Shown here piece by piece: positions 52,763 through 59,545 of a stretch of 64,000 nt of DNA. Position 1 is the first letter of the stretch. Every line of letters starts with the position of its first letter. The DNA comes from Rhizobiaceae bacterium (GTDB taxonomy: Bacteria; Pseudomonadota; Alphaproteobacteria; Rhizobiales; Rhizobiaceae). The stretch covers positions 124,001-188,000 of the forward strand of contig JAHBYW010000001.1 in the NCBI GenBank assembly GCA_019635755.1. Direction: 5' to 3'. The position numbers and the translations under genes are program-made. The notes below the pieces were generated by a model. It was not told the DNA's origin. It saw only the letters and a program-made list of their open reading frames with translations, and did no database searches.

Positions 52763-53065
52763 ATGACCAGACCCGCACGCACCGAACCAGCACGCACCGA
52801 GAAACTCGATCTCAGGCTCTCGGCGGCCTCGAAGCGTAAGCTTGCCGCCGCGGCCACCGCCGAGCGTCGAACGGTCAGCGATTTCGTGCTGGCGAGCGCG
52901 CTCGACCGGGCCGACGAGGCGTTGGCCGGCCGGCGCGACTTCCAGCTCGACGCTGCTGCGTGGCAGGATCTTCTCGCCGCGCTTGATGCGCCGCCGCGCG
53001 ACCTGCCTGAACTGCGCAAGCTCCTGCGCGAGCCCGGCCTGTTCTCCGCCGGCCGGCAGAAGTGA
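52763..53065 (+). CDS. tacA: DUF1778 (TacA-type) antitoxin
   Basis: 100 residues. Ribbon-helix-helix N-terminus (KLDLRLSAASKRKLAAAA..., about 14-50) and the DUF1778 C-terminal toxin-binding segment (DFQLDAAAWQDLLAALDAPP, then LRKLL). It neutralises the acetyltransferase toxin encoded by the next gene and should bind the palindrome upstream. No ribosome site is seen before the ATG, consistent with a leaderless message. The toxin start overlaps its stop (GTGA). Confidence 0.86.
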   Translation: MTRPARTEPARTEKLDLRLSAASKRKLAAAATAERRTVSDFVLASALDRADEALAGRRDFQLDAAAWQDLLAALDAPPRDLPELRKLLREPGLFSAGRQK

Positions 53066-53556
53066 CCGTCTTCCGCGTCGAGAAGCTGGCGCGGGAACAT
53101 CCGGTCGATGCATTCGATTGCGGTGAGCCGTCCCTGAACCGGTTTCTCGCCCGTCATGCCTTGCAGAACCAGCAAGCCAACGCAGCGCAGACCTATGTCG
53201 GCATGGCGGATGCCGAGGTGATCGGCTTCTACGCTCTGGCCGTTGGCAATGTCGGTTTCGACGACGCGCCGGAGCGACTGCGCAAGGGCCTCGCGCGCCA
53301 TCCGGTGCCGGTCATGCTGCTCGCGCGGCTGGCCGTCGATGTCCGCTGGCAAGGCCGGGGCGTGGCCGCCGGTCTGTTGCGGGATGCGATCCTCAGGACG
53401 CTGCAGGCTGCCGATATCGCCGGCATTCGTGCCTTCGTCGTCCACGCCAAGGACGACCGCGCCAGATCCTTCTACAGCCGCTTTGGCTTCGAGCCATCGC
53501 CAACCGATCCGCTGCACCTCTACATCCTGATCAAGGACCTGAAGACGGCGCTCTGA
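53062..53556 (+). CDS. tacT: GNAT toxin (TacT-like)
   Basis: 164 residues. GCN5-related acetyltransferase of the DUF1778-linked toxin class, which acetylates the amino acid on charged tRNAs and blocks translation. The acetyl-CoA loop is WQGRGVAAGLLRDAIL near residue 95, with the catalytic-type Tyr in FYSRFGF near residue 138. GTG start overlapping the antitoxin stop by 4 bp, so synthesis of toxin depends on antitoxin translation. Confidence 0.86.
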   Translation: MTVFRVEKLAREHPVDAFDCGEPSLNRFLARHALQNQQANAAQTYVGMADAEVIGFYALAVGNVGFDDAPERLRKGLARHPVPVMLLARLAVDVRWQGRGVAAGLLRDAILRTLQAADIAGIRAFVVHAKDDRARSFYSRFGFEPSPTDPLHLYILIKDLKTAL

Positions 53557-54383: not shown

Positions 54384-55841
54384 CTACCGCTCCAGCCGGT
54401 CGAGGAACCACTGGGTGAGACGGACCCAGACCTCGTCCTTCTCGCCGGAATCCTCCCATCCGTGGTCGAGGTTCGGGTTGTCGTTCACCTCGATCACGAA
54501 GACGCCGTCCTTGGTCTCCTTGAGGTCGACGCCATAGAGCCCGTCGCCGATGCAGCGCGCCGCGCGCACCGCCGTGTCGACCACCTCCGGCGGCGCTTCC
54601 TTGAGGGTGAATGTCTTGATCCCGCCCTCGTCGGCCTTCGACCCGTCGGCCTTGTGGTTGACGATCTGCCAGTGCTTCTTCGCCATCAGATAGTGCACGG
54701 CGAACAGCGGTTGCCCGCCCAGCACGCCGACGCGCCAGTCATATTTGGTGGGCAGGAACTTCTGCGCGATCAGCAGGTCGGAATCCTCCAGCCACTGCGT
54801 CGCCAGCGCCTTCAGCTCGGCCAGGGATTCCGCCTTCTTGACCCCGCGCGAGAAGGCGCTGTCCGGAATCTTGAGCACCAGCGGGAAGCCCAGCTTGTCG
54901 GCCGCCACCTCGAAATCCGCCGGAGACGCGATCATCACCGTCGGCGGCACCGGCACCTTGTTGTAGGTCATCAGCTCATTCAGATAGACCTTGTTGGTGC
55001 AGCGGATCATCGACAGCGGGTCGTCGATGACCGGCATGCCTTCCTGCTGCGCGCGGCGCGCGAAGCGGTAGGTGTGGTTCGAGATCGACGTCGTCTCGCG
55101 GATGAACAGCGCGTCGTAATTGGCGAGCCTGGCCAGGTCCTTCTTGGTGATCGGCTCGACCTCGACGCCCATCTTCTCGGCAATCTTGGCCCAGTAGCGC
55201 AGCGACTGGATTTCCGAGGGCGGCATCTGGTCGTTGGGGTCGACCAGCGTGGCGAACGACCAGCGCGCCGCGGTGCGCGCCTTGGAGTCGCGCCATTCGC
55301 GGCCGGTGTAGATGTCGAGGCTTTCGAGGAAACGCTTCTTGTCGTCCGCCTTCATCCGGGCCAGCGGCAGGAAGCCGATCTTGCCGATCGTCGCCCACTC
55401 GCCATTGTCCTTGATGGTCAGTTCCAGCGCGGGCGCCCTGAACCAGTCGAAGAGATGCTTGGCGAACTTGTCCCAGCCCTTGGACGGGCCGATGCCGAAG
55501 AACACCGACAGGTGGGCCGGGAACGTGCCCCCGATGTCCTTCCTTGCCTTGTTCAGCGCCTGCTCCAGCTCCGGCAGCGCGTGCTCGTAGAGCTTGCGCT
55601 CCGACAGGTCGATCATCGTCTCGACGGTCGGGATCACCCTATGGCCGCGCGAGCCGGCGAGCAGCGAGGCGTAGTAGCCGCGGCTCTGGTAGCTGTAGTT
55701 GTTGGAGAGGTTGATCACCTTCGGCCGCTGCCCGCGGAATAGTTGCGGGTGGGCGAGATAGTCGCGGTTGGTGATGATCTTGTGCGGCGTGTCGACCTGA
55801 TCGAGATCACTCGTCCGGCCTACAAGGATGACCCAAGCCAT
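54384..55841 (-). CDS. RimK-like ATP-grasp ligase with RLAN domain
   Basis: 485 residues. The N-terminal part (about 1-180) has the RLAN pattern found in a class of RimK-like ATP-grasp proteins (INLSNNYSYQSRGYYASLLAG near residue 45); the ATP-grasp domain follows with FPLVLKIPDSAFSRGVKK near residue 315 and the metal-binding end VIEVNDNPNLDHG near residue 455. Such ligases add amino acids to peptide or protein ends; the substrate is unknown. It starts 34 bp from the divergent C39-like gene and lies beside GNAT and membrane genes, suggesting one peptide-modification module. Confidence 0.82.
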   Translation of the reverse strand: MAWVILVGRTSDLDQVDTPHKIITNRDYLAHPQLFRGQRPKVINLSNNYSYQSRGYYASLLAGSRGHRVIPTVETMIDLSERKLYEHALPELEQALNKARKDIGGTFPAHLSVFFGIGPSKGWDKFAKHLFDWFRAPALELTIKDNGEWATIGKIGFLPLARMKADDKKRFLESLDIYTGREWRDSKARTAARWSFATLVDPNDQMPPSEIQSLRYWAKIAEKMGVEVEPITKKDLARLANYDALFIRETTSISNHTYRFARRAQQEGMPVIDDPLSMIRCTNKVYLNELMTYNKVPVPPTVMIASPADFEVAADKLGFPLVLKIPDSAFSRGVKKAESLAELKALATQWLEDSDLLIAQKFLPTKYDWRVGVLGGQPLFAVHYLMAKKHWQIVNHKADGSKADEGGIKTFTLKEAPPEVVDTAVRAARCIGDGLYGVDLKETKDGVFVIEVNDNPNLDHGWEDSGEKDEVWVRLTQWFLDRLER

Positions 55842-55875
55842 AGTAGGTTGTTACGACCTTTCCGGGAGATCGTGC
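55842..55875. promoter_or_regulatory. 34-bp divergent start region of RimK and C39 genes
   Basis: Only 34 bp separate the two start codons. The right side holds the GGGAG ribosome site of the C39-like gene; there is no room for two full promoters between the genes, so at least one promoter must lie inside the coding sequence of the other gene. Confidence 0.5.
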
Positions 55876-56466
55876 ATGGCGCAGAAGCTACCATTCCTGT
55901 GCGGTCCGGCGGCGCTCATCCGATTTCTCAACTGGCGAGGGTCTAGCATTTCCAATAGCCTTCGCAACCAGATCGACATCTGGCGCACCGCGAATACGAT
56001 TTTTATGGGGCAAGGCGCGGCGGGATGCGACGGCGCGGGCCTGGTGCGGGCGGCCGACAGGCTGGGCGAGACGCTGACGATCGTCCGGACGCAGCCGCGT
56101 TTCTCCTTCGCCGGCACGGTCCGGGACCCACTCAAGAAGAAGGTGATCGCCGGCGTCGAGCACGACAACATCGCCTTCGCGCGCGGGCGCGGTCTGCTCG
56201 GCCGTTTTACCGGGTGGGACGAGACGATGGAGGAGTTGAAGGCCCGGCCGCTGCTGGTTCTGTGCAGCATGCGCGCCTATTCGCGGTCGAACGAGTTCCA
56301 TTGGATCGCCTGCCGGCCGGCCAGGCGCGGCGCCGAGCTTCACGACCCGCTGGCCGGGCAATACGAGACGGGCCTCGACGAGCGTTTCGCGGCGAGCTTC
56401 CGCGCCGAGGGCATGGTTCCTGCCCTCTCCCGGGTACGCCGGCACGTCTACGACATCATTTTCTGA
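55876..56466 (+). CDS. C39-like cysteine peptidase (DUF3335-type)
   Basis: 196 residues. The papain-like Cys is in LPFLCGPAALIRFLNW near residue 9; later residues fitting the triad are the His of NEFHWIACRP near residue 140 and the Asp of HDPLAGQYETG near residue 155. The protein lacks an ABC transporter fusion and a signal peptide, so it is not a bacteriocin exporter; DUF3335 members are linked with RimK-like ligases and GNATs. GGGAG precedes the ATG at 55876. Its end overlaps the convergent GNAT gene by 11 bp. Confidence 0.75.
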   Translation: MAQKLPFLCGPAALIRFLNWRGSSISNSLRNQIDIWRTANTIFMGQGAAGCDGAGLVRAADRLGETLTIVRTQPRFSFAGTVRDPLKKKVIAGVEHDNIAFARGRGLLGRFTGWDETMEELKARPLLVLCSMRAYSRSNEFHWIACRPARRGAELHDPLAGQYETGLDERFAASFRAEGMVPALSRVRRHVYDIIF

Positions 56467-56908
56467 CGCGAAGGAATTTGATGCAGGACTGGCCGTCCGG
56501 ATAATAGTTCGCGACGGTGCTGTAGCGCCTGTAGCCAAGCGATTCGTAGCGCGTGATCAGCTTGACGTTGTCCGAGCGCACCTCGCACTGCATGTCGAGC
56601 CCGCGCGAGAAGCCCGCCTCCTCCATCGCCTCGAACAGCATCCGTCCCAGTTCGCCGCGCTGCGCGTCGGGTGCCACGGCCAGCGAATAGAACCGCAGCG
56701 CATTGCGCCTCGCGTGAAGCAGGCCGAGCGCGTAGCCCAGCACTTGGTCGGCCGGGTCGGCGACGACCAGCATGACGGAGTTGGGACTGCCCAGATGGTG
56801 CCGGAACTGGCGCCGCGTCATCGGCGTGTAAAACTTCGGATCGAACGAGCCGGCCTCGATCTCCACGAGGCGATCCAGATCGGCAGGCCTGCCTGGACGG
56901 ACCTTCAC
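56456..56908 (-). CDS. GNAT N-acetyltransferase
   Basis: 150 residues. RimI-like: VAPDAQRGELGRMLFEAMEEAG near residue 78 is the acetyl-CoA loop, with VRPGRPADLDRLVEIEAGSF at the N-terminus. GTG start at 56908, overlapping the stop of the upstream membrane-protein gene by 4 bp (GTGA), hence translationally coupled. The target could be the peptide handled by the neighbouring RimK-like and C39-like proteins. Confidence 0.82.
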   Translation of the reverse strand: MKVRPGRPADLDRLVEIEAGSFDPKFYTPMTRRQFRHHLGSPNSVMLVVADPADQVLGYALGLLHARRNALRFYSLAVAPDAQRGELGRMLFEAMEEAGFSRGLDMQCEVRSDNVKLITRYESLGYRRYSTVANYYPDGQSCIKFLRVRK

Positions 56909-58074
56909 TGGCGACTCCTCAGCTTGGCGTAGAGATAGGCGGCGACGCAGGCACCTGCCGCCAGCCCGACCGGCAGCCAGAACGCGCCGTCGGTCGAGGC
57001 GTCGGGGCCTGGTGCCGGGGCGACCGCGGCGACCGCCGCCTGGAAGATGGGAACCAGTTGCGTGAAGGCCAGCAGGAAGAGCACGCCCTGCACGACGACC
57101 TCGTAGCGGCGCGTCAGTTCGGCCTGCGCCTCCCGCGCGTTCTGGATGAAGAAGCTCGACAGGCGCTCGAGCTTGGTCGAGACGCGTTCGACGCTCAGCC
57201 TCTGCCAGCAGCCGTCATAGACCTCCTCGTCGAATTCGCGGGTGCACACATTGGCCGGATCGAACAGGCTCATCCGCTGCAGCAGCGTATTGTGCCGCGT
57301 CTCGTTGGCGGCGATCTCCTCCAGCAGCTCCGCCTGGCCGAGCTTGCGTCGCGGCCTGACGTCGATCCGCGACAGCCGCGCGAAGTCGGTGAGCGACGTG
57401 CAGTAGTAGCAGTAGAACGCCGACCAGAGGCCGAGCACGCGCCGCCATGACAGCTGCGGCGGGTTGGCCGAGCCGACGACTGCCAGCGAACCGGTCGAGC
57501 CGACGAGGTGTATCAGCGCGTCGTCGGCCTGCTGGCCCGGTGCCTCCGGCATCGCGTTTCCGCCGCACAAGACGTTGAACTGGCGCAGCAATTCCGCGTC
57601 CAGCGCCACGCCGTGCTGGACGCGCAGGATATTGATCGAGAAACCCCAGGTGAGCGAGAAGCTGCCCGGGCTGATGGCGAGGGCAGTCGCGATCAGCGGC
57701 GCGACCTGTTTTTCCTGGAGCGTGCAGAGGTTGAGGTAGATGTCGCGGATGCGCTGGTGCGGCACGCCCTTGAGGTCGACCTCGAACGTGACCACGAACA
57801 CGCCCAGCCTGCCGTCGAACACGGCGACAAGACTGGTCGGCGCCGCGACCGCTGTCAGTTCCGGCGCGAGCGCCGCCGCCGGCAGCCGGATCGGATCCTT
57901 GAAGATGCGGGTGCCCTCGAACGATGCGCGGAACTGGTCCGGGAACCATCGCGACCAGTCGGCCGAGGCCCAGCCAGCCCCGCCATGGATCACCGGGCCG
58001 GGCTCCCGGTCCGCCGCCCCGAAACGGATCGGCATGACGCAGACGATATGCGTCGATTCTGACCCGTCGCGCAT
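56905..58074 (-). CDS. unrecognised membrane protein, two C-terminal helices
   Basis: 389 residues, not recognised. A soluble region of about 310 residues contains an aromatic/Cys stretch (GLWSAFYCYYCTSLTDFARL, near residue 225) and a helical segment (TKLERLSSFFIQNAREAQAEL) before two hydrophobic helices (about 320-340 and 365-385) separated by an Ala/Pro loop. GGGAGGAG lies before the ATG at 58074, a very strong ribosome site. It is the first gene of a two-gene unit with the GNAT. Confidence 0.68.
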   Translation of the reverse strand: MRDGSESTHIVCVMPIRFGAADREPGPVIHGGAGWASADWSRWFPDQFRASFEGTRIFKDPIRLPAAALAPELTAVAAPTSLVAVFDGRLGVFVVTFEVDLKGVPHQRIRDIYLNLCTLQEKQVAPLIATALAISPGSFSLTWGFSINILRVQHGVALDAELLRQFNVLCGGNAMPEAPGQQADDALIHLVGSTGSLAVVGSANPPQLSWRRVLGLWSAFYCYYCTSLTDFARLSRIDVRPRRKLGQAELLEEIAANETRHNTLLQRMSLFDPANVCTREFDEEVYDGCWQRLSVERVSTKLERLSSFFIQNAREAQAELTRRYEVVVQGVLFLLAFTQLVPIFQAAVAAVAPAPGPDASTDGAFWLPVGLAAGACVAAYLYAKLRSRQ

Positions 58075-58238
58075 GTCTCCTCCCGATACGAGCGATCTGT
58101 CGCCCGGAACGGGCGATCGGCGCAAGGCCGTCCAGCGGGCCGCGGCGTATCCTCGATCACCTCGCGCCGCACGGATGCGGCCGGATCGATTGGATGACCG
58201 TGAACTGTTCCGAAACCCGCTTTCCGGATCGTGGCGCC

Positions 58239-59021
58239 CTACAGGTTCAGCCCGTCGACCATCTGCCGCCAGGCGTCGCGCGCCACCGGCCGCATCTGGT
58301 CCTCGGGCAGGTCGCTGACGACGGCACAGCCATAGCCGGGGTCGAGCCAGTAGATCGCCTTGGTCGTGCCCTCGTGCTCGCCGTAAAGGCCGCGCGCCTT
58401 GGTCGTCGAGGCCGCCGTCATGTAGATCGAGATGCGGTCGCCCTTGCTGTTCTGGTAGACGAGCAGCGCCGCCGGGCCGTCCTCGGCCGGAATGATGCGG
58501 CCGCCCAGCAGCTCGTATCCCTCGCCGGTGAGGTCGGGCAGGACCAGCGTCAGGCCGACCTGGCTGGACAGCCAGGTCTTCAGGTAGCCGTCGCCGTTCG
58601 CCGCGACCTCGACCACGTGGTCGGTGGCCGGCGTGAACGTCCGGTGCGCTGCGATCGCCTGCGCCGCCAGATCCTCGCCCGCACGGTCGAAGCCCAGTCC
58701 CGCGAGGCCAGCCATGTAGCCGCCCGCCGCCCCGACGGCGAGCAGCAGCGCCGCGGCCGCCGCCTGCCACCAGGCGGCGCGGCGGCGCGACGCCTGTCCG
58801 CCGCCCGCCAGCAGGGAGGCCAGACGCTCGGGCACGGCTTCCTCGGCGACATCGGCCAGCGCCGCCGCCAGACGGTCGCGGTCGGCTTCGTAGCGCGCCG
58901 ACAGCGCCTTCATGTCCGGGTTTGCATCCAGCCAGTGATCGAAATCGGCACGCTCGTCGGCCGGCAGTTCGCCATCGAGGGACAGGTGGATGTCCCGCAC
59001 GGAATAGTCGCGCGCCGTCAT
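58239..59021 (-). CDS. anti-sigma factor, membrane anchored
   Basis: 260 residues. The N-terminal cytoplasmic domain (about 1-75) has the short helical pattern of ECF anti-sigma factors (DIHLSLDGELPADERADFDHWLDAN), then one transmembrane helix (about 84-108) and a periplasmic C-terminal domain (about 109-260). It should hold the sigma factor at the membrane until a signal arrives. The start overlaps the sigma gene stop by 4 bp. Confidence 0.85.
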   Translation of the reverse strand: MTARDYSVRDIHLSLDGELPADERADFDHWLDANPDMKALSARYEADRDRLAAALADVAEEAVPERLASLLAGGGQASRRRAAWWQAAAAALLLAVGAAGGYMAGLAGLGFDRAGEDLAAQAIAAHRTFTPATDHVVEVAANGDGYLKTWLSSQVGLTLVLPDLTGEGYELLGGRIIPAEDGPAALLVYQNSKGDRISIYMTAASTTKARGLYGEHEGTTKAIYWLDPGYGCAVVSDLPEDQMRPVARDAWRQMVDGLNL

Positions 59022-59545
59022 CGGTCGACCACGCGGATCATCGGGCGCGGTGCGCCGCCGTCCAGCAGCGCCCGCAGGTCGTCGCGCCCGCGAGCGATCC
59101 GTGACATCAGCGTGCCCGCCGGCACGCCCAGGATATTGGCAGCTTCCGCATAGGAGAAGCCCTCGACTGCCACCAGCACGATCGCCGCGCGCCGGTCCGG
59201 GCTGATCTTCTGCAGCGCGTCCATAATCTCGCGCGTTGCCACCGCATCGACCTGCGACGCCTGCTCGACCGCTTCCGGCTGCGCGTCGGCCGAGAAGGCG
59301 ATCACCTCGGCGGTGCGCTTCACCTTGCGCAGCTGGTCGACAAAGAGATGATGCATGATCGTGAACAGCCAGCGCCTCGGGCTTTCTCCTGTCCGCCAGT
59401 TGTCGAGCCGCGTCAGCGCGCGCTCGAGGCAGTCCTGAACGAGATCGTCGGCGGCGTCGCGATCGCGCAGGAGCGCGCGGGCATAGCGCCGCAGCCGCGG
59501 AATCTCCGCGAGGACCGCCCCCCTCCTGTCGTCCATCTCGGCCAT
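59018..59545 (-). CDS. ECF RNA polymerase sigma factor
   Basis: 175 residues. Region 2 (about 15-85: RDADDLVQDCLERALT, with the -10-binding helix) and region 4 (about 115-165: ISPDRRAAIVLVAVEGFSYAEAANILGVPAGTLMSRIARGRDDLRAL) are complete, with no region 3. It is coupled to the anti-sigma gene and preceded by an ECF-type promoter (59611-59639), implying autoregulation. Met codons at 59545 and 59536 make the start ambiguous. Confidence 0.9.
   Translation of the reverse strand: MAEMDDRRGAVLAEIPRLRRYARALLRDRDAADDLVQDCLERALTRLDNWRTGESPRRWLFTIMHHLFVDQLRKVKRTAEVIAFSADAQPEAVEQASQVDAVATREIMDALQKISPDRRAAIVLVAVEGFSYAEAANILGVPAGTLMSRIARGRDDLRALLDGGAPRPMIRVVDR

Follow-up and report, generated by a model that had tools for sequence, protein, structure and literature searches.

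The 64,000-nucleotide stretch analysed here, referred to as the window (Rhizobiaceae bacterium, assembly GCA_019635755.1, contig JAHBYW010000001.1, positions 124,001-188,000, forward strand), carries a four-gene locus in which an ATP-grasp ligase of the RLAN type lies next to a GNAT acetyltransferase, a DUF3335/C39-like peptidase (C39), and a 389-amino-acid two-helix membrane protein, here termed MEM. This locus is tentatively regarded, at slightly less than an even chance, as a variant of the RLAN pathway in which a three-gene cassette of MEM, GNAT, and inverted C39 replaced the resident GNAT or GNAT-C39 gene, with ligation, acetylation, and processing as the presumed steps and an acetylated peptide as the likely product. 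The evidence for exchange is clean, and it comes from a second genus in which the same gene order occupies the site of a partly erased resident gene. A broader proposal is possible, though the balance tilts against it: a mobile MEM-GNAT-C39 cassette would have displaced the resident GNAT(-C39) beside the RLAN ligase more than once, converting a soluble pathway into a membrane-tethered one, and MEM would be the founding member of a scaffold or sensor family for ATP-grasp peptide ligases.

Locus organization and recurrence in a second genus

The ligase gene (54384-55841, reverse strand, 485 amino acids) encodes RLAN and RimK-like ATP-grasp domains (Pfam RLAN 135.7 bits against a cut-off of 25; RimK 36.8 against 21) and its product also scores above the R2K_3 cut-off (29.4 against 26.3 bits). 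A 34-bp gap (55842-55875) separates its start codon from that of the divergent, stand-alone DUF3335/C39-like gene for a papain-fold peptidase (55876-56466, forward strand, 196 amino acids; Pfam DUF3335, PF11814, 80.1 against 25 bits), which is inverted relative to both the ligase and the GNAT. The GNAT gene (56456-56908, reverse strand, 150 amino acids; Pfam Acetyltransf_1, PF00583, 42.1 against 20.7 bits) overlaps the 3′ end of the C39 gene by 11 bp, and its GTG start overlaps the stop codon of MEM (56905-58074, reverse strand) by 4 bp at a GTGA junction. MEM matches no family above cut-off; two C-terminal hydrophobic helices are predicted at residues 326-344 (57043-57099, reverse strand) and 363-381 (56932-56988, reverse strand), with values of 2.17 and 1.63 in a 19-residue Kyte-Doolittle window. 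All four genes, with their overlaps and the spacing between the divergent starts, lie where an earlier sequence-only reading of this DNA had placed them.

A search made with MEM and independent of RLAN returned one convincing homologue among 393 other genomes of the family (41% identity, E 9e-96), in genome G786 (G-numbers denote genomes and L-numbers fetched RLAN loci). This copy, found in one of the four genomes of its genus, is located ~1.2 kb upstream of an RLAN ligase in a 4.9-Mb genome. At this locus (L230), which belongs to a different genus from the window, the gene order is again MEM, GNAT, inverted C39, and ligase, with a TGATG junction between MEM and GNAT, C39 and ligase starts 33 bp apart, and a 4-bp overlap of the GNAT and C39 3′ ends. 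Because the order recurs in another genus with the same couplings, it reflects more than chance, and MEM is not a random neighbour of the GNAT, C39, and ligase genes. The earlier claim that the four genes are locked together gains from this recurrence, but it loses generality with the rarity of MEM, which is present in two genomes.

Replacement of a resident gene

The base composition of the G786 block differs strongly from that of its surroundings: G+C content is 46.5% in MEM, 47.1% in the GNAT gene, and 47.7% in C39, as against 64.5% in the ligase gene and 66.6 and 67.6% in the flanks, while third-position G+C is 48.6, 48.3, and 51.8% in the three cassette genes and 86-87% in the ligase gene. 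Against the congener G264 (locus L158), the G786 DNA remains similar as far as L230:9453 and again from L230:11852, a position slightly within the ligase gene. The break at L230:9453 falls within a short open reading frame (ORF) that matches the N-termini of resident GNATs (at best 75% over 44 residues), and G264 holds the remainder of a fused GNAT-C39 gene between the two break points. Taken together, the low G+C content, the similarity break, and the GNAT stump point to the displacement of most of the resident fused gene in G786 by a foreign MEM-GNAT-C39 block; replacement with a stump left behind is the simplest reading, and we infer that the block was imported.

Phylogenetic trees, built from chosen subsets of 54 of 120 rows for the ligase and 46 of 119 for the GNAT, agree with such an exchange. 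All trees exclude L054, L070, L091, L190, L206, and L211, the GNAT tree also excludes L189, and L192 and L204 form long branches. In the ligase tree, a quick reconstruction of 54 rows with some long branches, G786 groups with G264 (support 99) and the window falls in a different, 13-row clade (99). In the GNAT tree the window and G786 are sisters (99/91) within a four-row clade that also holds L203 and L192 (100/99) and stands apart from the other 42 rows; a grouping of the G786 GNAT with the G264 GNAT is rejected by the approximately unbiased test (p-AU 1.8e-5). The C39 tree likewise recovers the window and G786 as sisters (100/86), joined by the split C39 of L204 in a group distinct from the 66 fused forms (100/100). 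The ligases thus follow their hosts while the GNAT and C39 of G786 pair with those of the window, and the ligase is the resident, vertically inherited partner. The GNAT genes of L203 (8710-9222) and L192 (6863-7399), the two further members of the cassette GNAT clade, are lone genes beside RLAN ligases and possibly represent a source lineage or a reduced form of the cassette.

The window block is host-like in composition (64-68% G+C). Its ligase is 86.0% identical to that of L161, and its GNAT is 32.4% identical to the GNAT of the same locus. The neighbouring genes are collinear with those of eight near relatives compared by blastn, which are eight of the 12 other members of the window's ligase clade; similarity is lost at 58248-58423 and returns at 55835-55848, and the segment without a collinear DNA match in these relatives covers 55849-58247, with approximate ends. 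At that place all 12 other members of the clade carry either a resident GNAT (seven) or a fused GNAT-C39 (five). The same replacement would accordingly appear to have occurred in the window, whose copy was probably acquired earlier at the same site and has since adapted. Between the window and G786, identity is 80.6% for the ligase, 57.3% for the GNAT, and 55.4% for C39. On the basis of this divergence and the contrast in G+C content, we infer two separate acquisitions.

Partnership of RLAN ligase, GNAT, and C39

RLAN ligases are widespread, being found in 45 of 385 genomes of the class, 40 of 199 of the order, and 42 of 101 of the family, in overlapping samples that each include the window's own genome. 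The surroundings of 124 other RLAN matches were fetched, some of them cut by contig ends, and all frames were searched with purpose-built profiles. A same-strand GNAT lies within 2 kb of 122 of these 124 matches. The most frequent arrangement is a GNAT-C39 fusion on the ligase strand (69 loci), followed by a GNAT alone on the ligase strand (44) and a GNAT fused to the ligase with no C39 at the locus (seven). L081, which was counted apart, has both fusions, bringing GNAT-C39 fusions to 70 loci; L194 has its GNAT on the other strand; L091, a fragment at a contig edge in the genome that also holds L070, has neither; and L204, from genome G158, shows the split arrangement with an inverted C39, the class to which the window was also assigned. 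A frame break is present in the fused gene of L206. GNAT and ligase are fused in one protein at eight loci (L084, L189, L221, L225-L228, and L081).

GNAT and ligase occur with no C39 at the locus in 51 of the 124 cases (44 with GNAT alone, seven with GNAT fused to the ligase); the two form a near-constant core, to which C39 is an optional addition at these loci. The occurrence of fusions in both directions supports a single pathway for ligase, GNAT, and C39, as the sequence-only reading had supposed in treating them as belonging together. Beyond the trio, no conserved neighbour family was found in more than 21 of 126 RLAN loci.

The trio is a known kind of system rather than a new one, and Iyer et al. 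2009, known via citing papers only, is said to discuss the association of RLAN ligase, GNAT, and DUF3335. The accessible part of one such paper describes DUF3335 members as often fused to GNAT domains, citing the 2009 work (PMC10318531).

An alignment of 69 C39 domains, among them the window's, shows no variation in the Gln, Cys, His, and Asp columns; we take these to be the papain-type site residues. The site of the window C39 is intact, and peptidase activity is predicted. Relatives of C39 are also carried on plasmids (eight records, ~30% identity, from Azospirillum and Tistrella).

Distribution and nature of the membrane protein

With a two-sequence MEM profile and E values up to 10, no MEM copy was found in the 124 fetched RLAN surroundings, and whole-genome searches of 198 genomes of the order, 384 of the class, and 227 of the phylum (overlapping samples) yielded none besides the window's. 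Homologues were likewise absent from the collections of genome contigs, viral contigs, and plasmids, and from phages when queried with the G786 copy. The sequence-only reading had made its case depend on MEM lying beside most RLAN/C39 pairs in related genomes; MEM stands beside none of the 124 other RLAN matches and is hence not a general RLAN/C39 partner. It instead accompanies, in two genomes and thus rarely, a GNAT/C39 pair that is divergent and split. Among the 124 RLAN loci that have a GNAT on the ligase strand, the window and L230 counted, five contain an ORF that resembles MEM in its two C-terminal hydrophobic segments and ends near the GNAT domain; two of the five are the window and L230. 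The other three are L088-L090 (three genomes, one genus), where the ORF has a third hydrophobic segment besides the two at its C-terminus and stops 212-224 bp short of the GNAT domain of a GNAT-C39 gene; it is not matched by the MEM profile.

Such rarity, along with the split C39 of L204 that has no MEM, would be expected if MEM were a mere neighbour, carried along with the divergent GNAT and C39 but without a role in the pathway. This explanation is nevertheless improbable, as MEM is coupled to the GNAT in both genomes, at a GTGA and a TGATG junction, respectively, and has been kept with the GNAT and C39 although the cassette genes have diverged far more (41, 57.3, and 55.4% identity for MEM, GNAT, and C39) than the ligase (80.6%).

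Several weaker MEM matches were set aside. One in G202 (E 7e-4) is spurious, being antisense to a transporter gene with stop codons inside, and the remaining matches, in 13 other genomes and at one further position in the window's genome, have E values of 0.018-0.46 and were regarded as chance. Matches to TMEM43 (E 0.08) and to PHROGs families (E 0.11-0.4) are at chance level. MEM has no match above cut-off in Pfam or NCBIfam, and its best match among PDB sequences has an E value of 1; PADLOC assigned no family to any of five proteins, namely those of the window and the G786 MEM. The earlier description of the membrane protein as unrecognised thus stands in the searched libraries (Pfam, NCBIfam, PADLOC, and PHROGs, the last with chance-level matches only).

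The PADLOC result also bears on the idea that the module serves in anti-phage defence or as a toxin-antitoxin system, with a cassette as its carrier. The block is indeed rare and exchangeable, and was probably acquired horizontally in G786, but none of the window proteins nor the G786 MEM matches a defence family, MEM was found in no phage, plasmid, or viral collection, and the ligase is resident and present in 42 of 101 genomes of the family, which makes a defence function very remote.

Both MEM copies carry two C-terminal hydrophobic segments, and positive residues that precede the first helix and follow the second would place both termini of the protein in the cytoplasm. Structure predictions for MEM are of low confidence (mean predicted local distance difference test, pLDDT, 39.3 and 44.8), and no Foldseek match of the model reaches E 0.001. 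The weak matches of the model with pLDDT 44.8 include CorA chains (E 0.1-0.9), raising the alternative that MEM is a divergent CorA-like (2-TM-GxN) metal channel by which the cassette would link the peptide pathway to metal status. The modelled topology, with an N-terminal alpha/beta part, long helices, and two C-terminal helices, would suit such a channel, and the G786 MEM has a G-M-N motif after helix 1, presumably the place of the CorA signature. The window MEM, however, has no GMN, Pfam CorA is not matched at E up to 10, the Foldseek CorA matches have TM-scores of ~0.15-0.19, and an hhalign profile comparison of MEM with three sequences (E. coli CorA, ZntB, and one L071 homologue) gave a probability of 0.4%. 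A channel of this kind is therefore highly doubtful, and MEM is not filed as CorA-like.

Proposed pathway and its alternatives

In the proposed RLAN pathway variant, the ATP-grasp ligase would form a peptide bond, the GNAT would acetylate an amino group of the substrate or product, and the C39 enzyme would hydrolyse or process the product. On the inner side of the cytoplasmic membrane, MEM would provide a tether for the GNAT and C39 and, by way of these two, for the resident ligase; alternatively, it may sense a signal at the membrane and control the enzymes. Every enzymatic step and every MEM function is put forward here as a prediction from the genes. The product would most likely be a short acetylated peptide, analogous to the dipeptide made by Ngg in the synthesis of N-acetylglutaminylglutamine amide (NAGGN), rather than a modified protein.

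The same four proteins may instead modify a protein, as the sequence-only reading had suggested in terms of tagging, trimming, and capping: the ligase would add residues to an end or side chain, C39 would trim them, and the GNAT would cap them, with MEM either serving as the substrate or bringing it to the membrane. RimK adds residues to ribosomal protein S6, and the window ligase matches the RimK family (85.7 bits) in addition to passing the R2K_3 cut-off, while the best NCBIfam match of the GNAT is RimI (62.4 bits). Both family matches, however, fall under the curated cut-offs (143.4 and 86.4, respectively), with the G786 GNAT scoring 57 against the same RimI model (TIGR01575), and the frequency of the GNAT and ligase core without C39 (51 of 124) suits a small acetylated product. 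For the related R2K ligases, the accessible part of PMC4431377 proposes acyl capping by an associated GNAT after peptide ligation, which favours the protein alternative. Overall, a protein target is rather unlikely, and the gene content is no less compatible with a small acetylated peptide than with the tagging, trimming, and capping of a protein end.

Returning to the cassette-replacement reading, the exchange suggests that MEM, GNAT, and C39 work as one interchangeable unit. Several observations weigh against it. At L204 (6781-9374), an RLAN ligase is accompanied by a split GNAT and an inverted C39 but no MEM, another gene lies upstream of the GNAT, and that GNAT falls among the resident GNATs; L203 and L192, with cassette-clade GNATs, have neither MEM nor C39 nearby. 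Because L204 is devoid of MEM, and L203 and L192 of both MEM and C39, the unit is not obligatory. Moreover, no convincing direct repeats or mobile-element signature was seen at the cassette ends, where no dedicated mobile-element search was made. MEM is known from two sequences only and has no confidently predicted structure, in both the GNAT and the C39 tree the G786 rows deviate in letter composition, and the bootstrap of the GNAT tree has not settled.

At the split loci (the window, L230, and L204), C39 lies between the GNAT and the ligase on the strand opposite to both, an arrangement that, judged from gene order, would allow a noncontiguous operon. A consensus promoter scan for sigma-70 types found two promoter-like sites, neither of them in the 34-bp gap, and no terminator-like site was found in the scan at the GNAT/C39 junction.

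No description of the split, membrane-coupled, exchangeable version was found in the accessible portions of the open-access full text searched, and it may be mentioned in Iyer et al. 2009; the same applies to experiments on the product of an RLAN ligase, of which none was found in the accessible parts of the literature searched. A natural swap that keeps the ligase, replaces the GNAT and C39, and adds a membrane protein shows which parts work together. It also makes the product testable, as the ligase is expected to remain constant and the cassette to change placement or capping, with G786 and its congener G264 providing a ready-made comparison pair.

Neighbouring genes

A TacA1-like antitoxin gene (PF08681, 74.1 against 21 bits) and a second GNAT gene, overlapping by 4 bp, lie near the ligase gene at 52763-53556 (forward strand) and probably form a TacAT-type toxin-antitoxin pair; this toxin-type GNAT (53062-53556) is distinct from that of the four-gene locus. 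Upstream of MEM, a sigma factor of the extracytoplasmic function type (59018-59545, reverse strand; best Pfam match PhyR_sigma2, 77.3 bits) overlaps an ORF without a Pfam match in the position of an anti-sigma factor, the pair spanning 58239-59545 (reverse strand). The pair aligns in the near relatives and is resident context.

Comparison with known systems

The window locus shares with known RLAN, GNAT, and DUF3335/C39 systems (PF14401, PF11814) the adjacency of the three enzyme families and a ligase gene collinear with those of relatives, but differs from them in having divergent, unfused GNAT and C39 genes, the latter in inverted orientation, and a membrane gene coupled to the GNAT. The inverted gene lying between opposite-strand genes in the window, L230, and L204 resembles the noncontiguous operons described in the accessible part of a review (PMC7154746), although here the resemblance is known from gene order alone.

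Among ATP-grasp ligases, the RimABK/RimK system of S6 glutamylation is similar in its RimK-like domain. In contrast, the window ligase carries an extra RLAN domain and has different neighbours, and it scores below the cut-offs of both RimK models (30.6 against 331 bits for NF007764; 85.7 against 143.4 for TIGR00768). The carrier-protein ligases LysX and ArgX provide the best sequence match of the ligase to a solved structure (PDB 5k2m, E 5e-11), and LysX (TIGR02144) is its best NCBIfam match (88.1 bits), yet under the cut-off of 275.6.

NAGGN synthesis is the favoured analogue, on grounds of similarity in gene content. Certain differences are evident: with TIGR03103 the window GNAT reaches 21.7 bits where the cut-off is 569, C39 takes the place of the aminopeptidase, and none of the listed ORFs was seen to encode an asparagine synthase, no search having been aimed at AsnO. 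According to the accessible part of PMC8070244, the NAGGN pathway comprises Ngg, AsnO, and a glutamyl aminopeptidase, with Ngg acetylating one glutamine and joining it to a second. Like that pathway, the window unites predicted GNAT, peptide-ligase, and peptidase functions in one locus, and the fusion of GNAT to ligase in eight of the 124 RLAN loci resembles the domain combination described for Ngg.

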